Part shown: positions 1-10,276 of the stretch, in pieces
Layout of the letters: each line of letters opens with the position of its first letter
Numbering within the stretch: the stretch's first letter is position 1
NCBI RefSeq assembly: GCF_025787225.1
Contig: NZ_CP090958.1
Span: forward strand, 1,207,856 to 1,271,855
Direction: 5' to 3'
Length of the DNA stretch: 64,000 nt
DNA from: Saxibacter everestensis
Lineage (GTDB): Bacteria > Actinomycetota > Actinomycetes > Actinomycetales > Brevibacteriaceae
Notes under the pieces: generated by a model
What the model saw: only the letters and a program-made list of their open reading frames with translations
The model's database searches: none
Told to the model about the DNA's origin: nothing
Translations under genes and position numbers: made by a program

Positions 1-432
1 AGGGTCGAACTCGCCGCTCTCCTTGCCTTCGGCAATCACGTTCCGGATCACGCCAAGCACGTTCTCCCGGACGAACAGCAGGGTGTCCTGCCAGGCCCGG
101 CCGGTTCGGTACATTTCGGTGAAGAGCAGCTGCATGAACGCCGGTGTTTTCGACGCCCGCTGCAGTACCTCAGTGAAAATGGCGTCAAGCGCCGCCGTGC
201 CCTTAAGTCCCTTGCTGACCTCGGTCATCCGGCTGGTCAGCAGGTCGACGCCGTACCCCAGCAGCTGACGGAATAGTTCCTCCTTGGAGCCGAAGTTGTA
301 GTACACCGTGCCCTTGGCGACTTCGGCCTTGGCGGCTATCTCGTCGATAGTGGTTGCCGCATACCCGTGCTCGGCGATCAGCACCACCGCCGACTCGTAG
401 ATCTTCTCGCGGGTCGTCATTGACTTTCCCAT
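1..432 (-). CDS. TetR-family transcriptional regulator (3' end cut by window edge)
   Basis: Reading the minus strand from 432 gives 144 codons with no stop, so the C-terminus lies outside the window. Residues about 8-55 form a TetR-type N-terminal helix-turn-helix, ending in the typical VAKGTVYYNFGSKEEL stretch. The rest would be the ligand-binding and dimerisation domain. The ATG at 432 follows a GGAGG ribosome site and overlaps the TGA of the upstream YhgE/Pip gene (TGATG), so the two are translationally coupled. The regulator is the last gene of the ATPase/YhgE/TetR unit and probably represses it through the dyads at 3547-3570. The ligand is unknown. Confidence 0.9.
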   Translation of the reverse strand, partial: MGKSMTTREKIYESAVVLIAEHGYAATTIDEIAAKAEVAKGTVYYNFGSKEELFRQLLGYGVDLLTSRMTEVSKGLKGTAALDAIFTEVLQRASKTPAFMQLLFTEMYRTGRAWQDTLLFVRENVLGVIRNVIAEGKESGEFDP

Positions 433-2585
433 CACACCTCCAGGACCGGATACAGACGCTTCATTGTCACCATCCGCTGTTTCCGGGCGGTCAGGGCGGT
501 GAGAGCCAGCGCGCCGAGAGCGACGCCGGCAAGGACCAGGACGTCCAGGCTGATTCTGGACATGTCGCCGCCGGAGATCAGCACCCGCAGGCCCGAGACC
601 AGGTACGTCATCGGCAGGTAGGGGTGCAGCGCCTGGAACAGACCCGGCGAGGTCTGGATCGGATAGGTTCCGCCGGCGGACGTCAGCTGCAGCATCAGGA
701 TCGCCAGGGCCAGCAGCCGGCCCGGGGTGCCGAGTGCGGCATTGAACAACTGCATCAGTGCGGTGAACGCAAGGCTGCCGAGCCAGGTCATCGCAAAAGC
801 CCCCAGCGGATGTTCGGGCGTTATTCCGAGGCCGAAATGCAGGACGAGCCACATCAGGATTGTCTGGCCGAGCGACAACAGCGCGGCCGGAGCGTAGTTC
901 GCCCACATCACCCGGACCGGATTGGTGGCAGATGCGATAAGGCGGGGCGACAACGGCTTGAGCACCATGTACGTCACCAGAGCGCCCACCCACATGGCCA
1001 GCGCGATGAAGTACGGCGCGAAGCCTATCCCGTATGTGTTCGCCTTGTTCTCATTCGAATCGGTCTGGCCAACCGGATTGGCGACCACATCGGACCGCTG
1101 ATCCTTGTCGGCGTAGTCCGGTATCTTTTTCGCGCCGTCGGCCAGGGAGTCGGCTAGCTTGTGCGAGCCGTCGCTGAGCTTGGCTAGGCCTTCCTCAAGT
1201 GAACCGGAACCGTCGGTCGCCTTCTCCGCCCCGTCGGCAAGTTTCGTGCTGCCGTCGGCAAGTTTCGCCGATCCGGTCTTGGCCTCGGCCGCGCCATCAG
1301 AGAGCGCCGAAGCGCCAGCGGACGCCGAGTGGATGCCGGACGACAGTTGATCGGCGCCGTTCGAGGCACTCTTGATGCCCTGGTGCAGCGCTGGCGCGGC
1401 CTCGGCGAGTTTCTCCGCGCCATCGGCCACCTTGTTGGCGCCGGCTGCAAGCTTCTTCGTGCTCGCCGCGGCCTCGTCGAGGTCCGAATCGATGCCTTGC
1501 AGTTTCGGATCGACCCTGTCGGCAACCGACTCCGCTTTTGCGATCGCCTTGTCCAGTGCCTCCACGGTCGTCTGGTCGCCGGCATTCTTCGCGTCGTCAC
1601 GTTGCGTCTTCAGGTCGGCGATGAGGTCGTCCCGCAGTTGCTGCCTGGCTTCGGCGATGTCGTCACTGGCCTTGTTGATCTTGGTCGCCACGTCGTTGAC
1701 CTGCTCGGTTCCCTCGGCCACCTGCTGCGCGCCGTCGGCGAGTTGCCGGCTCTGCTCGGGCAGGCTGGCCGTCTTGTCGTCGAGGGTTGACAGCCCCTGC
1801 GCCAGAGTTTTTCCTCCGGAGTCAAGCTTCGCCAGGCCGGCCTCCAGGTCATTCGCTCCGGTATCGAGCTTCCCGATGCCGGTGTCCAGCTCGCTCGCGC
1901 CGTTCGCCAGCTGGTGTGAGCTCGACGACAGCGTTTTGAGCCCTTCGCGCAGCTCGCGGGCTCCGTTGTCGGCTGAATCGACGCCATCGGCGACGTCGTT
2001 CGCTCCGTCGGCGGCATCGTTGGTCGAATTGTGCAGCGTGCTCAGCGAGACATACACATTGTTCACGTACTCGCTGGTCACCTCGTGGGCGAGGTTTTCG
2101 CGGATCGCCTTCAGCACGCTGTTGGAGATCTGGCGGATCAGATAATTGTTCGAGTCGTCGGTTGTGAGTTCTAGGTTCGCCTGTTCGGCGCGCTCGGATG
2201 CGGGGGAGACCAGGTTTGCCGAGAAGTTCTCCGGCACCGTCACGATGACCAGGTACTTGCCCTGCTTCAGCCCGCGGGCAGCCTCTTGGGCATCGGTTAT
2301 CGTCCAGTCGAGTGAGTCCGACTCGGGCAGCTTCTCAGCGAGTTCCTCGCCCGCATTCAGCGTCGTCGTCTTGCCATCGGACGAGGTGACCGATGCCGGC
2401 TTGTCCTGCACCACGAGGGCCGCCGGCACGTGGTCGAGGTTGCCGGTGGGATTCCAGAACGACCACAGGTAAAGGGCGCCGTACAGCAGCGGAACGACGA
2501 CAACCGCCAGCAGTGCGAGTTTCGTCAGTGTCGCCGACCTGAAGCGCTTCAGCTCGAAGCTGGGAAGGTGGGTGAGGCGTGCCAT
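432..2585 (-). CDS. YhgE/Pip-family membrane protein
   Basis: The product has 717 residues from the ATG at 2585. It has one N-terminal membrane segment (about residues 19-40), a long extracytoplasmic region and about five or six C-terminal membrane segments after residue 520. The middle of the protein is dominated by degenerate repeats of the type LADGxxxLxxG, a hallmark of YhgE/Pip proteins and likely a helical or coiled-coil stalk. Family members resemble ABC-2 permeases and include the phage infection protein of lactococci and type VII secretion-linked EsaA. A TTG at 2600 would overlap the preceding gene, but the ATG at 2585 is better placed after GAGGAC. The ABC-ATPase-like gene lies directly upstream and the TetR gene downstream. 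I infer a membrane export or envelope role; the substrate is unknown. Confidence 0.88.
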   Translation of the reverse strand: MARLTHLPSFELKRFRSATLTKLALLAVVVVPLLYGALYLWSFWNPTGNLDHVPAALVVQDKPASVTSSDGKTTTLNAGEELAEKLPESDSLDWTITDAQEAARGLKQGKYLVIVTVPENFSANLVSPASERAEQANLELTTDDSNNYLIRQISNSVLKAIRENLAHEVTSEYVNNVYVSLSTLHNSTNDAADGANDVADGVDSADNGARELREGLKTLSSSSHQLANGASELDTGIGKLDTGANDLEAGLAKLDSGGKTLAQGLSTLDDKTASLPEQSRQLADGAQQVAEGTEQVNDVATKINKASDDIAEARQQLRDDLIADLKTQRDDAKNAGDQTTVEALDKAIAKAESVADRVDPKLQGIDSDLDEAAASTKKLAAGANKVADGAEKLAEAAPALHQGIKSASNGADQLSSGIHSASAGASALSDGAAEAKTGSAKLADGSTKLADGAEKATDGSGSLEEGLAKLSDGSHKLADSLADGAKKIPDYADKDQRSDVVANPVGQTDSNENKANTYGIGFAPYFIALAMWVGALVTYMVLKPLSPRLIASATNPVRVMWANYAPAALLSLGQTILMWLVLHFGLGITPEHPLGAFAMTWLGSLAFTALMQLFNAALGTPGRLLALAILMLQLTSAGGTYPIQTSPGLFQALHPYLPMTYLVSGLRVLISGGDMSRISLDVLVLAGVALGALALTALTARKQRMVTMKRLYPVLEV

Positions 2586-2596
2586 GGTTCCAGTCC

Positions 2597-3529
2597 TCAA
2601 ATATGTTCAGTGGTAGTGAGGTCGACGCGGACGCAACGGTCGTCGTCGAGAATTTCCGGGAGTGGCAGCTCGACGCAGCTTGCCACGACGGTGCTGCCGT
2701 CCGCGCAGATTTGGCGAAGCAGTTCCCACAGGGCCGTGCGCTGCCCGGCGTCGAGGATTGAATCGACGTTGTCGACGACCAGGATCCGGGGTTCGGCCAG
2801 CAGGGCCAGGCCAATGCCCACAGTGCTGCGTTCAAGCGGATGCAGGTCGCGGACCAGGGTGGCCTCGTCGCTCGCGGAAATCCCGACGGACCCGGCCAGA
2901 TCTTCCAGCAGCGTGCGTGCCGCCTGGTAGCGCCGGGCCGGAATCATCGGCTTGTACCAGGGGGACAGGCCGCTTATCCGTTCCCGGACATGGTCGTGAA
3001 TCGAGAGTGCCGGCTCCAGCGGGTTGACGCCGTGCATTTCCGCCAGCGCGACCGATCGCTGGACAGTCGAGGATTCTCTTGGCAGTTCGTGGCCGAGCAC
3101 CTCGAGGTGGCCGGTTGTCGGCTTCATCCTGCCGGCGAGTGCGAGCAGCAGGGTCGTCCGGCCAGATCCGGAGGGGCCATTCACGATCACAAGTGAGCCA
3201 GCGGCCGCAGTGAACGACACGTCCTGGTAGATCGTGCGGCCGCGCACTGCGAGACCCAGGTCGGTGACGGCAACCGCTACTGCGGGCTCCGGTTCGGCGG
3301 TCGCGAGTTCGGTAGCGTCTTCGGCTGCGGGCTCCAGCTCAGCAGCGTCGGTCGGTTCATAGGTGAGGTCGCCAGCGTCGGTCGGTTCATAGGTGAGGTC
3401 GCCAGCGTCATCGTAAGCTTCTTCGCCGGCAGCGTCGGTCGTGTCTTCGGCGCCGGCGGCTTCCAGAACGGTTTCCAGCTCGCTTGCTTCCCCTACCGGC
3501 TCGGCAGAGCCTTCGGTCGGCTGTTGCAT
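2597..3529 (-). CDS. ABC-transporter ATPase-like protein with altered Walker motifs
   Basis: The product has 310 residues. Residues 1-80 are an acidic, low-complexity extension with the ten-residue unit DAGDLTYEPT in tandem. Residues about 85-300 are an ABC ATPase fold. The Walker A motif reads GPSGSGRT, with Arg in place of the invariant Lys. The Walker B region reads ILVVDNVDS, with Asn where the catalytic Glu normally sits, and the LSGGQ signature is degraded to LHPLERS. The ribosome site AGGAG precedes the ATG at 3529. The gene ends 11 bases before the YhgE/Pip start and is presumably its partner. The substitutions argue for weak or absent ATP hydrolysis, so it may act as a nucleotide-binding scaffold rather than an engine. 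Confidence 0.85.
   Translation of the reverse strand: MQQPTEGSAEPVGEASELETVLEAAGAEDTTDAAGEEAYDDAGDLTYEPTDAGDLTYEPTDAAELEPAAEDATELATAEPEPAVAVAVTDLGLAVRGRTIYQDVSFTAAAGSLVIVNGPSGSGRTTLLLALAGRMKPTTGHLEVLGHELPRESSTVQRSVALAEMHGVNPLEPALSIHDHVRERISGLSPWYKPMIPARRYQAARTLLEDLAGSVGISASDEATLVRDLHPLERSTVGIGLALLAEPRILVVDNVDSILDAGQRTALWELLRQICADGSTVVASCVELPLPEILDDDRCVRVDLTTTEHI
3343..3402. repeat. 30-base perfect tandem duplication inside the ABC-like gene
   Basis: Two exact copies of a 30-base unit lie at 3343-3372 and 3373-3402, followed by seven bases of a third. They keep the reading frame and encode DAGDLTYEPT twice in the acidic N-terminal extension of the minus-strand ATPase-like gene. The lack of any mismatch suggests a recent slippage event. 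Confidence 0.95.
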
Positions 3530-3546: not shown

Positions 3547-3570
3547 GTCAGTTTGAACTGACTAGTCAGT
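3547..3570. promoter_or_regulatory. Probable TetR operator (overlapping dyads)
   Basis: Three alternating half-sites GTCAGT/ACTGAC form two overlapping dyads. The first is GTCAGTT-N2-AACTGAC at 3547-3562. The second is the perfect palindrome ACTGACTAGTCAGT at 3557-3570. They sit 18-41 bases upstream of the first gene of the minus-strand operon that ends with the TetR gene. Position and symmetry fit autorepression. Binding itself is inferred. Confidence 0.6.
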
Positions 3571-3633
3571 ACAAAAATACGCCTGAGCGATTGACCTGGC
3601 AAGCCGGGACGTCCCGAGCATGCATGACCACTA

Positions 3634-3651
3634 TGTGAGATCGATCTCACA
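3634..3651. promoter_or_regulatory. Upstream LacI-type operator of the deglycase operon
   Basis: TGTGAGATCGATCTCACA is a perfect 18-base palindrome with a central CG, the usual layout of LacI-family operators. Its 14-base core TGAGATCGATCTCA recurs at 3694-3707. It lies just upstream of the candidate -35 box at 3657. The LacI gene at 9200 is the likely partner. Confidence 0.6.
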
Positions 3652-3656
3652 ATCCC

Positions 3657-3685
3657 TTGACGTGCTGTGACGCAGCTCTCACTCT
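3657..3685 (+). promoter_or_regulatory. Candidate promoter of the SIS/PfkB/ABC operon
   Basis: TTGACG at 3657-3662 is followed after 17 bases by CACTCT at 3680-3685. The -35 match is good and the -10 match is weak. Transcription would begin near 3692, on the edge of the second operator, about 30 bases before the first start codon. Confidence 0.4.
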
Positions 3686-3693
3686 GGAGGTAC

Positions 3694-3707
3694 TGAGATC
3701 GATCTCA
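3694..3707. promoter_or_regulatory. Downstream LacI-type operator of the deglycase operon
   Basis: TGAGATCGATCTCA is a perfect 14-base palindrome identical to the core of the dyad at 3634-3651, with centres 58 bases apart. It covers the predicted transcription start and ends 13 bases before the SIS-gene ATG, so a bound repressor would block initiation. Confidence 0.6.
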
Positions 3708-3720
3708 CATAGGAGCCAGA

Positions 3721-4749
3721 ATGATAAAAACAGTGCAGGGACGCGGTGTCGTGGGGATGCAGGACAGCATCGTCGAGGATGTCGCCGATGTGGCAACCGG
3801 AGCAACCTTTACAGCGGTACGTCGCTTTGTTGCCGACTACTTCACGTCGAGTACGTCAGTGATCTATCTCGTGGGTTGCGGCGGCTCGCTCTACATGTTC
3901 GGTGCCATGAAGTATCTGCTCGATGACTTACCGGTGCCGGTCATCACAATCAATTCCGCCGAACTGGTTGCCCGTCGTCCTGCCGGCCTCGGGCAGAATT
4001 CCCTGGTCATTGCATCGTCTACTCACGGCACGACGATGGAGACAGCAGAAGCAATCACTGTGGCGCGTAGTTCAGAGGCCCCGGTTCTGCTCGTGTGCCA
4101 GAACGTTGACAGTCCTTGCGCTGCAGCAGCCGAGCACATAATCAACCACAACGGAGTTGAGGCCAAGCAGGTGCTGCTAGCCGTGATTGCGCACGAACTC
4201 CTTGATACTCGGCACGTCGTGCCGCGATCTCTCCCGGCGCCTGACGTGCTCGCCGGCTTGGGGCCGGTTTTCCGGGAGACTAACGTCGCGTGGGACCGCG
4301 AGCTGGAAGCAGTGGCCACGTCGATTGCCCATGCAGAACTTTCGTTCGTCATCGGGTCGGGCCCCAATGAAGGTGCCATCGACACGTTCGCCTCGTGTTA
4401 CCTCATGGAGATGCAGAATCTCGCCGCGGTCGCTTCCGGTGCCAACGATTTTCTTCATGGCACCCACGAGATGATCGACGATGACAGCACGTTACTCGTC
4501 CTCGTTGGTGAAGATTCGACCCGAGAGATAGCAGAACGTGCCGCGGAGTTCGCTAGGCGGTTCAGCCGGAAAACGAGTGTTCTCGACACCGCAGAGCTGC
4601 CGATGACGGGAGTGGTCGCCAACCATCGGTCGACGGTTTCCGCCTTGCTCTTCGCTAGTTCAGTCATTGCCCGGCTTGCGCAGCGCGTCGAGGCGGTCAC
4701 GGAAGTGCCGCTGATCAGTCGGAAGTACATGTGGAAGGCCACATACTGA
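3721..4749 (+). CDS. SIS-domain sugar-phosphate deglycase, FrlB/FraB-like
   Basis: The product has 342 residues with two SIS (sugar isomerase) folds. The first phosphosugar-binding loop is seen as VGCGGSLYMFG and SSTHGTTMET. The start ATG at 3721 follows TAGGAG. Enzymes of this group split fructosyl-amino-acid 6-phosphates into glucose 6-phosphate and an amine, the second step of Amadori-compound use. Glu230 (in LMEMQ) and His246 (in FLHGTHE) lie 16 residues apart, matching the spacing of the catalytic Glu214/His230 that I recall for Salmonella FraB. The stop overlaps the kinase start (TGATG). AgaS-like or GlmS-isomerase-like functions are alternatives, but the kinase neighbour and the amino-acid-type importer favour a deglycase. 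Confidence 0.8.
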   Translation: MIKTVQGRGVVGMQDSIVEDVADVATGATFTAVRRFVADYFTSSTSVIYLVGCGGSLYMFGAMKYLLDDLPVPVITINSAELVARRPAGLGQNSLVIASSTHGTTMETAEAITVARSSEAPVLLVCQNVDSPCAAAAEHIINHNGVEAKQVLLAVIAHELLDTRHVVPRSLPAPDVLAGLGPVFRETNVAWDRELEAVATSIAHAELSFVIGSGPNEGAIDTFASCYLMEMQNLAAVASGANDFLHGTHEMIDDDSTLLVLVGEDSTREIAERAAEFARRFSRKTSVLDTAELPMTGVVANHRSTVSALLFASSVIARLAQRVEAVTEVPLISRKYMWKATY

Positions 4750-5603
4750 TGCGAGCAGTTGTGATTGGCGACAATATTGTTGATCTGTTCGTCGAGCAGG
4801 GACAGGCCTCGATCGGCGGAAATTGCCTGAACGTCGCGGTCCATCTCCACCGCCTGGGTATATCGACGCACTACATAGGAAGCGTCGGCGACGATGAAGT
4901 CGGACTCGCTGTGATTGATGCCCTGACTCAGGAGGGGCTCGCCGTCGATGGAATCGAGCGTATCCCTGGCCGGCCGACTGGTTACGCGCGGATTCACCAC
5001 GTGAACGGGGAACGCTATTTTGCGGACTTCGATCGGGGCGCCAGCGCAGTCTCGCCCAGTGTCAGGCAGTGGGCAGCCGTGGACGGGGCGAGCATCATCC
5101 ATACCAGCTATTCATCGCTTCTCGAAGATGCGCTTCCACGGCTGGCTTCGATTGCCCCCGTGTCATTTGATTTCGATGCACACATCGACGATGCGTATGC
5201 CCGGACGCTGATGCCCCACGTGTCACACGCTTTTTTCTCGGCTGCCGGCCACGCCCCGGCGGACCTGAAAGATTACGCCGGAAGACTGCTTTCCGGCGGC
5301 GTGGAGACAGTGACGACGACATTGGGCAATGAAGGTGCTTTGCACTTCCGTTCCAGTGGGGCCTGGGAGCAGTCGTCTTCCCGAATAACCGCCGTCGACA
5401 CTCTAGGCGCGGGAGATGCTTTCATCGCTGTGATGCTGGCCAGCATTCTCAACGATCAAGCTCCGCACGAATCGATGGCGCAGGCGACAATCCGAGCGGC
5501 CGAAGTGTGCAAATCGGTCGGGTCGCTCGGACTCTTTATCGGCGCCAACCTTGTCCACGAGCACATTTCACCGCACGGCCGTCAGAGAGAGAAGATGTCA
5601 TGA
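4749..5603 (+). CDS. PfkB-family carbohydrate kinase, FrlD-like
   Basis: The product has 284 residues with the ribokinase/PfkB fold. The N-terminus MRAVVIGDNIVDLF and the loop GGNCLNVAVHLHRLG form the sugar site. The second PfkB signature DTLGAGDAF carries the catalytic base Asp223. The protein is close in size to fructoselysine 6-kinase FrlD. I chose the ATG at 4749 because it overlaps the upstream TGA; an in-frame GTG at 4731 lies inside the previous gene. In the proposed pathway it phosphorylates the imported Amadori compound on O-6 before the SIS protein splits it. The substrate is inferred from context and could be another sugar derivative. Confidence 0.82.
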   Translation: MRAVVIGDNIVDLFVEQGQASIGGNCLNVAVHLHRLGISTHYIGSVGDDEVGLAVIDALTQEGLAVDGIERIPGRPTGYARIHHVNGERYFADFDRGASAVSPSVRQWAAVDGASIIHTSYSSLLEDALPRLASIAPVSFDFDAHIDDAYARTLMPHVSHAFFSAAGHAPADLKDYAGRLLSGGVETVTTTLGNEGALHFRSSGAWEQSSSRITAVDTLGAGDAFIAVMLASILNDQAPHESMAQATIRAAEVCKSVGSLGLFIGANLVHEHISPHGRQREKMS

Positions 5604-6505
5604 AACTCAACGTAGTGGCTCCACTTGCCTTTACGGTCTCTCTGGTTGTCCTGGCCGGCTGCAGTTCGGCAGCCGACGAAGGAAGCCAGTCTGCATCGTC
5701 GGGAAAACCGAGCGTTCCTGTCTCCGTGAAAGTCGACGACTCAGTCGCCTCGCAGGTTCCCGACGACTTTGCGAAAGGTGTGAATGTCGCCGTCTACAGC
5801 GATTGGGCGCCCGAGGAGTACGTTGAGGGCAATCAATTCAAGGGATGGTCGGTCGAGATGGCGGAATTGATGTCCCAGAAGATGGGAGTAGGTTTTTCCT
5901 ATGACCCCAGTGGCTTCGATGCCATCATTCCGGGGCTCGAGAATAATCGTTACGACATTGCAGTTGCCAGCCTCGGGGTCACCGATGAGCGACTTAAGAG
6001 CCTTGATTTCGTCCCGCTTCAGAAAGAGGGGACAGCCTTCGCATGGAAGAAGGGCAATAGTTCCGCCGCAGTGGATGCGCTCGATGAGGTGTGCGGAAGG
6101 TCCGTTGCGGTACTCACAGGCGCGTGGGAATACGACTATCTGACCTCCCACAATAAGGAGGTGTGCGGCGACAAGCCGATGGACATCCAGCAGTTCAAAG
6201 ATCAGCCTTCGGCGGAACTTGCTGTCTCGTCGGGCCGGGTAGAACTTGTGGCTGCGGGATCGGGAAAGCTCGGCTACGCCGCGAAGCAATCCGGGGCCCT
6301 TGAAGTTGGGGATTTCATCGTCGATCCTGTCTACAACGGCATCGGAGTGCCAAAGGGGAGTGAACTCGGCCCGGTACTTCGGGATGCGCTGCAGTCACTT
6401 ATCGACGACGGCACCTATGCCAAGATCCGAGCGAACTGGGCGGCCTCAGAAGTCGGCAATCTGGACCGGGCCGTGTTGATCACCGAAGAGCATCCGAAGG
6501 GATGA
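5600..6505 (+). CDS. ABC importer substrate-binding lipoprotein, polar amino acid family
   Basis: The product has 301 residues. A lipoprotein signal peptide ends at VVLAGC with Cys21 as the lipidation site, followed by a Ser-rich linker. The remainder is a family 3 extracellular solute-binding domain of the HisJ/GlnH type (for example WSVEMAELMSQKMG and NRYDIAVASLGVTDER). The ATG at 5600 overlaps the kinase stop (ATGA); a longer reading from 5507 lies inside the kinase gene. The protein would catch the substrate outside the membrane and pass it to the permease at 6512. A solute-binding protein of this family next to a sugar kinase and deglycase points to a sugar-amino-acid conjugate rather than a plain sugar. 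Confidence 0.88.
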   Translation: MKLNVVAPLAFTVSLVVLAGCSSAADEGSQSASSGKPSVPVSVKVDDSVASQVPDDFAKGVNVAVYSDWAPEEYVEGNQFKGWSVEMAELMSQKMGVGFSYDPSGFDAIIPGLENNRYDIAVASLGVTDERLKSLDFVPLQKEGTAFAWKKGNSSAAVDALDEVCGRSVAVLTGAWEYDYLTSHNKEVCGDKPMDIQQFKDQPSAELAVSSGRVELVAAGSGKLGYAAKQSGALEVGDFIVDPVYNGIGVPKGSELGPVLRDALQSLIDDGTYAKIRANWAASEVGNLDRAVLITEEHPKG

Positions 6506-6511
6506 TGCACC

Positions 6512-7444
6512 GTGTCTAACGTCACGCATGCTCCGACTGACGCTGACTCAGCACGTATCGCGACCTCGGAAACCCGAGTTCGCCATCTGACACATCCCAC
6601 GTGGTGGCTCGGGGGAGTAATCGTCCTTGCCTTGATAGCCTCGTTTCTCCATCTGCTGTTCACCAACGAAAACATGAAGTGGGATGTCGTCGGCGAGTAT
6701 CTCTTTCATCCCGAGATTCTTCATGGGCTGTGGGTGACGATTGAATTGACCTTCCTTGCGATGGTCATCGGCTTGGTCCTCGGCGTAATTCTGGCCATAA
6801 TGCGCCTGAGCCGAAACCCACTGTTTTCTGCAGTCAGTTGGCTCTGGGTGTGGTTCTTCCGCGGAGTTCCACCCCTCGTACAAATGATTTTTTGGTTCAA
6901 CCTCGCCACCCTCATCCCGGAAACGAAGCTTGGTGTGCCGTTTTCCGGCATCACGTGGGCGAGCTGGGACACGAACACTCTGATGACCCCGTTCTCGGCT
7001 GCTATCCTCGGCCTTGCCTTGACGGAGAGCGCCTATGCTGCCGAGATGATCCGCGCTGGAATTATGGCGGTGCCGCGGGGGCAGGTCGAAGCCGCTTCGG
7101 CGTTGGGGATTTCATCCGGGAAAGTGACGATCCGTATTGTGCTACCGCAGGCGCTGCGCATAGTCATTCCGCCAATCGGGAACGATCTCATTTCCATGCT
7201 GAAGTTCACGTCGCTGGTAAGCGTGCTCGCAACGCCTGACCTGCTATACAGCGCACAGATGATTTACTCGCGGAACTATCAGACAATTCCTCTGCTGCTC
7301 GTCGCCACGCTGTGGTACTTGGTACTGACAACAGTGTTTACGCTTGCCCAGCAGACAGTTGAACGGAAGGTCCACGATCGACCGTTGATTCCAGTGCAGA
7401 AACTAACATTCAATCCGTTTGGCGCGCGAAAGGTCGTCTCATGA
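6512..7444 (+). CDS. Amino-acid-type ABC importer permease
   Basis: The product has 310 residues from a GTG at 6512 preceded by AAGGG. An extended N-terminus of about 25 polar residues is followed by five or six membrane segments typical of HisMQ permeases. The EAA loop that docks on the ATPase is visible as [20 protein letters not shown]. The single permease gene implies a homodimer. It lies 6 bases after the binding protein and overlaps the ATPase gene by four bases (ATGA). Confidence 0.9.
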
Positions 7445-8208
7445 GCTGGCCACTGCTTAAAGCCGATAATATTCACAAGTATTTCGGCAGTAATCACGTA
7501 TTGCGCGGCGTGGACCTTGAGGTTCGAAAAGGTCAGGTGCAGTGCGTCATCGGACCCTCAGGATCGGGGAAGAGTACTCTGCTCCGTTGCCTGAACTTCC
7601 TTGAGCGTCCTGATCAAGGGTATGTCTACCTCGATGGTGAGCCGATTGGTTATGCCTGGTCGGGTAACGAACTGCGCGAGATGCGCCCGGCCGGCCTTGC
7701 CCGACAACGTGAACGGATGGGCATGGTCTTTCAGAGTTTCAACCTGTTCGCGCACCTCTCCGCACTGGACAATGTCAAACTGGCTCCCCGCCTTGTCAAT
7801 GGAATAAGCGAAGGCGTAGCAAGGCAGCAAGCCGCCGACTTGCTAGCCGCTGTGGGGCTGCAAGGCAAAGAGGATCACAAGCCTGCTCAATTGTCCGGTG
7901 GACAGCAGCAGAGGGTTGCGATCGCGAGGGCACTGGCGATGAAGCCAGAGGTCATGTTGTTCGACGAGCCGACATCGGCCCTTGATCCCGAACTCGTCGG
8001 TGACGTTCTCGACGTCATGCGTGGATTGGCCGATGATGGGATGACGATGGTGATCGTCACTCACGAGATGTCATTTGCTGCGGATGTCGCAGACCAAGTC
8101 GTATTCATGGACGAGGGTAACGTCGTGGAAGCGGGTACGCCTGAGGACATCTTCTCCCGAAGTTCGCACCCGCGTACCGTGTCGTTCTTGTCTCGGGTAC
8201 TGGGATGA
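7441..8208 (+). CDS. Amino-acid-type ABC importer ATPase (GlnQ/HisP-like)
   Basis: The product has 255 residues with intact motifs: Walker [11 protein letters not shown]-loop VFQSFNLF, signature [10 protein letters not shown], Walker [15 protein letters not shown] and switch His in VTHEMSF. It powers the importer formed with the two upstream gene products. The ATG overlaps the permease stop, and its own stop overlaps the next start (ATGA in both cases), so the operon continues into the cyclodeaminase-like gene. Base composition here is clearly lower in G+C than the dcw genes. Confidence 0.93.
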
Positions 8209-9143
8209 CTGAGAAGATTGACAGTATCGAAAGGATCGGTGTCGCGGCATGCCACATAGCGGTGACGGACGATGAACTCGTCCAAGCGATGGACCGCGCT
8301 GGGCGGATCGCCGGACACCCCGAACTCACGGCGACGCGTATGGCCGCTGATGCCGGAGAAGACCTGATCTTTGGACACAGCTGCCTGATCCCAGGATTGG
8401 GGATGTGTGTAAAGACGGGGATTCAGAAACCGGGCAACCGAGCCAAGGGAATCGATACCGTCCAGGCAGCGGTCCTGCTGTTCGAAAACGCAACTGGTCG
8501 TCCGGTGGCCCTCGTCGACGGAAAAGCCGTTACCACCATGCGCACGGCCGGAGCACTTGTTGCGGGAATAAGGGCGTTGCGGCCAATTCCGCAGCCGAGG
8601 GTGGCGGTGATCGGCTTCGGTTCCCAGGGGCGACAGGTCGCTGAACTGTCCCGCACCGTTCTCGGGGCCGCCGAGGTCCGGGCATATACCCCTTCGGGGG
8701 TGGCAGCGGAAGATGGGATCGACACAGCCCGCACCATAGCTGAAGCCGCTGCTGGCGCCGATGTCGTTGCTTGTTGCACCTCGAGTCCACGACCGGTCAT
8801 CTCTCGATCGGATCTTGCTGATGACGTTGTCGTCGGCACGATGAACTCGTTCAGCCCAGCGCTTGTGGAGATCGAGCCCGAGATTATCGGCCACGCCACC
8901 ACGGTTCTCGTTGATAACGCACCTGAAAATTTCGGCCCAATTGTCCAGTGGACCGACGCCGGCGGCCGGTTGCCGGTTCTGCGGTACCTCGGTCAGGTTC
9001 CACCTCCGCGGGCCGGGGACGCCGGTGCGAGGGGGATCCGAGCGGCCTTTGTCGGTGGAACTGGATACCAGGACGCTCTCGTTGCCTGGAGCGTTGTCCT
9101 CGGTTGGTCACAGGTCGAGGAAGTAACTCGCCAATACACTTGA
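8205..9143 (+). CDS. Ornithine cyclodeaminase / mu-crystallin family protein
   Basis: The product has 312 residues. It has the N-terminal dimerisation region, the TTMRTAGA motif typical of the family at about residue 107, and a Rossmann NAD(P)-binding loop [10 protein letters not shown] at about residue 128. Family members cyclise ornithine to proline with ammonia release, or reduce cyclic ketimines or Schiff bases. The gene is the last of the operon and starts within the ATPase stop (ATGA). It may process the amino acid or imine freed by the deglycase. Its substrate cannot be read from sequence, and alanine-dehydrogenase-like activity is another possibility. Confidence 0.85.
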
Positions 9144-9199
9144 CTTATAAGAATACCGAAACGGTGCATCCAAGCCCAGGAAAGTGAGCAAAGCGCGGT

Positions 9200-10276
9200 A
9201 TGAAGCCGAAAAGCGCCAGTATTAAGGATGTTGCTGCGGCGGCAGGCGTGTCCCGGGCTACTGCGGCGCGCGTACTCGGTGGATATGGGTACGCGAGCGG
9301 TCAGGTCCATGAGGCAGTGCTCGGTGCGGCACGAGAGCTCGATTACGCACCGAGTCGCATGGCTAAAGCAATGCGCACCGGGCAATCGCAACTGATTGGA
9401 TTTGTCAGCGCCGACATCACCGATGGCCTGTTCTCCGAAGCGCTTGGCGGAATTTGCCGAATAGCCGAGCCCCTCGGATACCAGGTCGTTGTCTTCAATA
9501 GCGCCGATCGTCTCGACGGCGAACGTGAAGGTATTCGCAACTTGCTCTCGCACGGAGTGGAAGGGCTTATTGTTTCTCCTGTTGTCGTCTCCCAACGTGA
9601 GCACCTCCAAGCGGCTGCTCGCGCCGTGCCGCTCGTGTGTCTCGATCGAGCCCCTGAGGGCCTGCCGAGTGTTGTATCTGACAACGCAGGAGCCGCTCGC
9701 CGGGCGGTGCAGTCGCTGGTCGAACATGGACATCATCAGATCGGCCTGGTGTCCTCGGTCCAGGCCGAGGAACCGATCGTCATTGATTCGTCCGACCAAA
9801 TCCTGCGCGTGCTCGGTCCTGACCGGCCCTCGGTTTTGCGTGCGCGCGGCTTCGTTGATGGAATGCACGATGCCGGATTGCCCATCGGACCCGGCCAACT
9901 CTGTTTCACCCCCCATCTTGCTGAGGACGCACAGCTCAGGGTCACGCAGTGGCTTGAAGCCAAAGACGGCCTCACCGCGGTACTCGCTGCGGACTCCTAT
10001 CAGGCACGTTATGTCTACCGGGCGCTGCGTCTGCTCCGACGCCGAGTTCCCGAAGACCTCTCGCTGATCGTGTTCAGCGACGCCGAATGGACGGAGTTCG
10101 TCGTTCCTCCGCTGGACACGATCAGCCTCGACGGTGCAGAAATGGGAGCTCGTGCCGCAGGCGCCTTATTCGAACTGATTCGGGGAAGCGCACAAGCGAC
10201 TTCTGAGGTTATATCCGCGATCCATCGCCCCGGTCAAAGTGTCGTGACTCTGTCTGCTGAAGCGACAGCTACCTAA
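9200..10276 (+). CDS. LacI-family transcriptional regulator
   Basis: The product has 358 residues. Residues about 7-30 are the helix-turn-helix (SIKDVAAAAGVSRATAARVL), residues 50-60 the hinge, and the rest a periplasmic-binding-protein-like sensor domain. It starts 56 bases after the cyclodeaminase-like gene, with only a weak ribosome site before the ATG at 9200. It is on the same strand and may be partly read through from the operon. LacI proteins bind palindromes with a central CG, which are found twice at 3634-3707, so it most likely represses the deglycase operon until a sugar derivative binds. Confidence 0.9.
   Translation: MKPKSASIKDVAAAAGVSRATAARVLGGYGYASGQVHEAVLGAARELDYAPSRMAKAMRTGQSQLIGFVSADITDGLFSEALGGICRIAEPLGYQVVVFNSADRLDGEREGIRNLLSHGVEGLIVSPVVVSQREHLQAAARAVPLVCLDRAPEGLPSVVSDNAGAARRAVQSLVEHGHHQIGLVSSVQAEEPIVIDSSDQILRVLGPDRPSVLRARGFVDGMHDAGLPIGPGQLCFTPHLAEDAQLRVTQWLEAKDGLTAVLAADSYQARYVYRALRLLRRRVPEDLSLIVFSDAEWTEFVVPPLDTISLDGAEMGARAAGALFELIRGSAQATSEVISAIHRPGQSVVTLSAEATAT

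Follow-up and report, generated by a model that had tools for sequence, protein, structure and literature searches.

A predicted Amadori-compound operon with a distinct amino-acid-type importer and a ketimine-reductase-like enzyme in Saxibacter everestensis

What would a gene cluster take up and degrade that joins a candidate sugar-amine deglycase and a sugar kinase to an amino-acid-type ATP-binding cassette (ABC) importer? Such a cluster lies in a stretch of 64,000 nucleotides of Saxibacter everestensis (NZ_CP090958.1, positions 1,207,856 to 1,271,855), here called the window, to which all coordinates without a locus label refer. It consists of seven genes, all on the plus strand, at 3721-10276 (3631-10276 with the operators). 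Decaying plant material, soil, food and the gut all contain Amadori compounds; to our knowledge, only few catabolic loci for them have been characterised. We consider it probable that the unit is an inducible Amadori-compound utilisation operon. This variant is undescribed in the literature searched, and its ketimine-reductase-like enzyme is the constant partner of a distinct importer.

An earlier note on the sequence had listed six genes at 3721-9143 (SIS-domain protein, PfkB kinase, family-3 solute-binding lipoprotein, HisMQ-type permease, GlnQ-type ATPase and a cyclodeaminase-like gene), joined by overlaps of 1-4 bases or a 6-base gap. All six are present on the plus strand, and the joints measure -1, -4, +6, -4 and -4 bases, as described. 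The kinase starts at ATG 4749, with a 1-base overlap with the SIS stop; GTG 4731 is a mechanical open-reading-frame start only. The extent of the operon had been drawn too short, however, since a LacI-family repressor gene, which begins 56 bases past the ornithine cyclodeaminase (OCD)-family gene, and twin operators were overlooked. The seven genes form a tight operon rather than a chance adjacency, because the identical seven-gene order and the twin operators recur in three other Brevibacteriaceae genomes: G005, G009 (Brevibacterium sp. RM44_bin.014) and G066 (Brevibacterium sp. 68QC2CO). Identity to the window is 62-66% for the SIS protein and 74-81% for the permease, but only 41-43% for the OCD-family protein. 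The operon is missing from most other Brevibacteriaceae members examined and ranks as an accessory unit. Computation covered the genes present in the operon and their conservation, the placement of the products in families, their catalytic residues, the conservation of the operators and the association of the importer with the OCD gene.

By sequence, the best solved relative of the SIS protein is B. subtilis FrlB (3eua, 118 bits), followed by Salmonella FraB. The structure-based comparison with FrlB and FraB, proposed in the earlier note, agrees: Foldseek placed 3eua at the top for the SIS model (pLDDT, the predicted local distance difference test score, 65), with FrlB 8glr and FraB entries ranking high. 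It should be considered that the structure models were built from three sequences each and are of fair quality only (pLDDT 65 and 75). A tree of 29 proteins puts the SIS protein within the FrlB/FraB clade, adjoining proteins from the Ti plasmid and from S. mirabilis (93/87), whereas AgaS, GlmS and a rhizobial phosphosugar isomerase fall outside on long branches. A grouping with AgaS or KpsF, which would have argued against a deglycase, was not seen: the protein has no meaningful similarity to AgaS, and its curated-model matches include no KpsF model (KpsF was left out of the tree). Matches of the SIS protein weaker than ~1e-20 were GlmS-type paralogues and were disregarded. E230 aligns with the catalytic E214 of FraB, whose E214A mutant is catalytically inactive (PMC12755824), and H246, 16 residues on, is also conserved. 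Sequence, tree, fold and the catalytic Glu all place the SIS protein among the FrlB/FraB/Ti-plasmid deglycases, and deglycation is also its predicted activity. The same genome contains a second Frl-type cluster (L031:5380-12890) with SIS, PfkB, LacI, a family-1 sugar-binding protein, a permease and an AP_endonuc_2 epimerase-like protein; its SIS protein sits on a different branch of the SIS tree.

For the kinase, the best curated model is fructoselysine 6-kinase (PRK09813) with 146 bits, the next model scoring 80, and the catalytic GAGD motif is present (VDTLGAGDAF). The membership of both proteins is assigned by clade and residues and not by equivalog, because neither the SIS protein nor the kinase reaches its curated cut-off.

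The earlier note had regarded the polar-amino-acid importer as a departure from the frl and fra loci. It does differ from these, but import of an Amadori compound by an amino-acid-type system already has a known precedent in SocAB of pAtC58. SocA is a binding protein of family 3, encoded in the soc locus, which serves deoxyfructosyl-glutamine (PMC4231840) and adjoins repABC; the solved entries 5l9o and 5lom bear the name deoxyfructosyl-amino acid transporter binding protein. A SocAB-type importer is not known together with a kinase, a deglycase and a ketimine reductase. With 24% identity to SocA and a separate, starred tree branch, the binding protein of the window is not a SocA orthologue. 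Its clade retains the carboxylate-binding Arg and carries Trp at three positions that are Ala, Phe and Leu in SocA. The suggestion that the substrate may be a different conjugate gained indirect support from the 24% identity to SocA, a lost Asp (see below) and the three own Trp residues; a different conjugate is likely. The loss of the Asp was rejected as proof of a substituted amine, as SocA binds a fructosyl-amino acid yet keeps it.

At a contig end of genome G089 (L064:96-3749), a kinase, a SIS deglycase, a SocA-like binding protein (59% identical) and a permease stand in one operon, which looks like a Soc-type importer joined to kinase/deglycase chemistry. The location of this kinase/SIS pair beside a SocA-like protein would anchor kinase/SIS pairs to fructosyl-amino acids.

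The gene that had been called cyclodeaminase-like belongs to PF02423 (62 bits, cut-off 24), and its model matched mu-crystallin and P2C reductase structures first, in line with the superfamily fold. The family assignment stood, but the name did not: K70, N78 and R113 are retained, whereas D228 of OCD is replaced by Phe. All ten copies aligned have Phe, Tyr or His in place of Asp228 while keeping the active-site Lys and Asn, and "cyclodeaminase" was rejected as a label on account of this replacement. Asp occupies position 228 in ornithine cyclodeaminase, EutC and BhcD; it is likewise missing from LhpI, from the product of a Streptomyces gene beside a proline-racemase-family gene and from two other relatives. 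The Arg112 position is Lys in the rhizobial copies, and an Arg45 equivalent was found solely in the window copy. As reference for OCD, the conclusions rest on the annotated Shinella sequence rather than on that of P. putida. A cyclodeaminase activity is improbable for this enzyme. The rhizobial proteins score 295-315 bits with the model for P2C/Pip2C (pyrroline-/piperideine-2-carboxylate) reductases, the cut-off of 322 not being reached, and their best solved match is the Medicago Pip2C reductase 7rbp (190 bits); the window copy obtains 68-72 bits with such models, below the cut-offs of 322 and 266. According to an eLife study, the OCD superfamily acts on ketimines of alpha-amino acids (PMC4113996). 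Because of the replaced Asp228, the matches to P2C/Pip2C reductases and this superfamily chemistry, we infer a ketimine reductase or amino-acid dehydrogenase as the best reading.

Outside the window the gene set occurs, in shuffled orders, in the three Brevibacteriaceae genomes, in one other actinobacterial family and in 12 alphaproteobacterial plasmid loci. In the other actinobacterial family, genome G310 has the kinase first, along with SIS, binding protein, permease, ATPase and OCD genes; it is the one carrier among 23 members of its genus, with no further carriers. The nearest relative of its deglycase is the SIS protein of G089 (47% identity). Its importer (L062:6159-8120) is nearer to that of Rhizobium SRDI969 (L074:8878-10759; binding protein 58%, permease 70%) than to that of Brevibacterium, hinting at a transfer between phyla, for which tree support is weak. 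Beyond the Actinomycetota, the closest relatives of the binding protein are encoded on plasmids of Rhizobium, Agrobacterium, Sinorhizobium meliloti (pSymA), Shinella, Microvirga and Paracoccus, with identities of ~46-52% before a drop to ~33%. These loci contain SIS, PfkB, LacI, binding-protein, permease and ATPase genes and a gene annotated as ornithine cyclodeaminase, and often add a GntR/UTRA regulator, an FrlC-like epimerase and flavoproteins. The epimerase has fructoselysine 3-epimerase as its best curated model (126 bits), the plasmid SIS proteins share 43-47% identity with B. subtilis FrlB, and in A. tumefaciens F2 the depositors labelled two genes of the set frlR and frlC. The Amadori kinase/deglycase pathway proposed in the earlier note thus finds support in the SIS clade, in the FrlC-like epimerases of sister loci and in the SocA-like protein near a related pair.

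The association of importer and OCD gene is tight. An order scan of 396 genomes gave four scores above 480 bits for the binding-protein clade, the next best being 177, and 4 of 4 genomes with this importer clade carry the kinase, SIS and OCD genes. Over all loci with the importer clade, the OCD gene is intact in 16 of 17 and present as fragments in one, from Microvirga, where the fragments lie between the ATPase and GntR genes (L077:11519-11938) in what is apparently a recent loss. None of ~20 deglycase loci without the importer clade has an OCD gene; one 20-bit antisense match (L070) was judged to be chance. A Fisher test on the importer versus OCD table gives ~6e-8, a figure that is illustrative only as the loci are related. 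With the OCD alignment and strict peptide patterns, a scan of the genome contigs returned only the two known Brevibacterium loci. Judged by occurrence, the OCD enzyme is part of the same module as the importer, because its gene is present (once decayed) in 17 of 17 importer loci and in none of the ~20 others. The deglycases of the importer loci come from three branches of the FrlB tree, and the label "with OCD" requires at least four changes on the SIS tree, so that importer and OCD gene were retained while the deglycase branch was swapped. In the OCD tree there are two groups, one actinobacterial and one alphaproteobacterial, so the OCD genes need not share a single origin. If the OCD gene was recruited twice, its functional tie to the importer would be stronger.

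Upstream of the SIS gene, a pair of 19-base inverted repeats lies at 3631-3649 and 3694-3712. Both contain the 14-base core TGAGATCGATCTCA (3636-3649 and 3694-3707), of which the whole 4.05 Mb genome holds these two exact copies only, the chance expectation in the window being 0.07. Similar operator pairs precede the SIS gene in the three relatives sharing the operon, where TTGACA-N17/18-CA(C/G)ACT occupies the place of the probable promoter. The coordinates are collected in Table 1. Separately, a near-perfect palindrome (TTTGAACTGACT/AGTCAGTACAAA, 3552-3575) upstream of a minus-strand ABC exporter pair (432-3529) is a possible TetR-type operator.

Table 1. Genes and regulatory elements of the operon, with positions in the window
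Feature	Coordinates	Strand	Basis
Operator 1 (CTATGTGAGATCGATCTCACA)	3631..3651		repeat search; upstream of promoter
Probable promoter, TTGACG-N17-CACTCT, between both operators	3657..3685	+	reading of the sequence; counterpart in three relatives
Operator 2 (TGAGATCGATCTCACATAG)	3694..3712		repeat search; just before ribosome site
Predicted SIS-domain fructosamine-6-phosphate deglycase (FrlB/FraB type), 342 amino acids	3721..4749	+	profile and structure matches, tree, catalytic residues
PfkB-family kinase, FrlD-like (predicted fructosamine 6-kinase), GAGDAF motif	4749..5603	+	curated models, alignment
Family-3 solute-binding lipoprotein, distinct importer clade	5600..6505	+	profiles, alignment, tree
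HisM/GlnP-type ABC permease	6512..7444	+	profile matches
GlnQ-type ABC ATPase	7441..8208	+	profile matches
OCD/mu-crystallin-family NAD(P)-dependent enzyme, ketimine-reductase-like	8205..9143	+	profiles, active-site alignment, structure model
LacI-family repressor, final gene of the operon	9200..10276	+	profile; conserved as last gene in L027, L028 and L029

Each known system resembles the operon in part. B. subtilis frlBONMD-frlP has an FrlB-type SIS deglycase, an FrlD-type kinase and an ABC importer in common with it, but its importer is FrlONM with the ATPases FrlP and MsmX (PMC12632257), it lacks an OCD enzyme, and it has the regulator FrlR where the window has LacI. Salmonella fra and E. 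coli frl share the deglycase and kinase families and the FraB catalytic Glu, and the FrlC-like epimerase with the sister loci; E. coli frl, however, uses the permease FrlA and the regulator FrlR and has no OCD gene, while the window operon is without FrlC. The soc locus of Agrobacterium pAtC58 (SocRABCD, deoxyfructosyl-glutamine) likewise combines a family-3 amino-acid-type importer with a LacI-family regulator (PMC4231840), whereas its cleavage enzymes are an FAD oxidoreductase and a Gfo/Idh/MocA protein and it has neither kinase nor SIS protein. In a Ti-plasmid cluster (NC_002377, L021), the SIS protein is 34% identical and groups with the window branch (93/87), and the kinase is annotated as fructoselysine 6-kinase; this cluster has a polyamine-type ABC importer, an Xaa-Pro peptidase and, within the stretch, no OCD gene. 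The P2C/Pip2C reductases (LhpI, 7rbp, T. litoralis 6t3e) share the fold, the NAD(P) motif, Lys and Asn and the Asp-less 228 position with the OCD-family enzyme, although the window copy is divergent from them. In the literature searched, no P2C/Pip2C ketimine reductase was reported in an Amadori gene cluster, and searches on OCD with Amadori, fructoselysine with meliloti and Brevibacterium with Amadori returned no description of the module.

For the probable Amadori operon we infer the substrate class, the order of steps, the OCD reaction and the effector as follows. The amino-acid-type ABC importer would take up a fructosyl-amino acid whose alpha nitrogen is probably substituted. The PfkB kinase would phosphorylate the sugar at C6, and the SIS deglycase would convert the product to glucose-6-phosphate and an amino acid. 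The amino or imino acid set free would be handled by the OCD-family protein, working with NAD(P) either as a ketimine reductase or as an amino-acid dehydrogenase. Sitting on both promoter-flanking operators, the LacI repressor would silence the operon as long as neither the substrate nor its phosphate is present. Several observations weigh against this proposal. The SIS protein scores 54 bits with the curated fructoselysine 6-phosphate deglycase equivalog (E. coli FrlB type; cut-off 430), and the 146 bits of the kinase stay below the PRK09813 cut-off of 247. The missed SIS cut-off rules out only the narrow fructoselysine equivalog and leaves the wider FrlB/FraB clade untouched, because B. subtilis FrlB and E. 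coli FrlB share just 30% identity. On the tree, the SIS proteins of the Brevibacteriaceae stand apart on a long branch of their own, so sugar or amine could differ. SocA contacts its ligand through an Asp that the binding-protein clade has lost, and something other than an ordinary alpha-fructosyl amino acid may therefore be bound. Finally, the OCD protein of the window has diverged, scoring ~60-70 bits with the best OCD models, and the model of its C-terminal region is poor.

These points bear on how the substrate might be specified further. We regard as rather speculative, and on balance improbable, the narrower proposal that importer and ketimine reductase form an undescribed Amadori branch for sugar conjugates of a cyclic amino acid, on the pattern of fructosyl-proline or fructosyl-pipecolate. 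In this reading the reductase would act on a ketimine of proline or pipecolate that arises along the pathway. A tertiary ammonium might be expected to go with a binding protein such as this one, in which the carboxylate Arg is retained, the amine-binding Asp is lost and three Trp have been gained. The same Arg, in a protein without SocA's Asp, would also suit some other sugar conjugate, such as an amino-sugar acid or a mannityl opine, handled by a phosphosugar kinase and an aldose/ketose isomerase or deaminase, with the OCD enzyme oxidising a secondary amine or the acid part. OCD-family secondary-amine enzymes do exist, such as SbnB, whose structures were matched, and tauropine dehydrogenase (listed in PMC4113996). 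In addition, a neighbouring cluster of Rhizobium sp. SRDI969 (L074:13483-18750) with a ROK kinase, a different SIS, a family-3 importer and a BadF-type ATPase gene suggests that amino-acid-type importers may serve other sugar derivatives too. Since SIS protein and kinase nevertheless group with deglycases and fructosamine kinases, sister loci have an FrlC-like epimerase and a related kinase/SIS pair adjoins a SocA-like importer, we hold this alternative to be unlikely, if worth keeping in mind.

A true ornithine/lysine cyclodeaminase, which would turn the diamino acid freed from fructosyl-ornithine or -lysine into proline or pipecolate, seems quite improbable: PF02423 membership, the retained Lys69 and Arg112 equivalents of the window protein and the public annotation of the sister genes would speak for it, but the Phe, Tyr or His at position 228, where true OCD, EutC and BhcD have Asp, the restriction of the Arg45 equivalent to the window copy, the rhizobial Lys at Arg112 and P2C/Pip2C reductases as top models contradict it. 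Least credible is an ordinary polar-amino-acid importer operon, unrelated to sugars, that adjoins the sugar-phosphate pair by chance. The nearest solved relatives of the binding protein are indeed glutamine-binding proteins, yet the gene set recurs at 17 loci from two phyla, its genes arranged in no fewer than four orders, and all four importer-clade genomes of the order scan hold the kinase, SIS and OCD genes.

The module spans two phyla, and its carriers include pSymA of S. meliloti and plasmids of Agrobacterium. That importer and ketimine-reductase-like enzyme are retained in both points to a step absent from the textbook pathway. As importer and OCD gene stayed together through exchanges of the deglycase branch, this step is probably needed for the importer's cargo; it poses a concrete enzyme question that is testable in model rhizobia.

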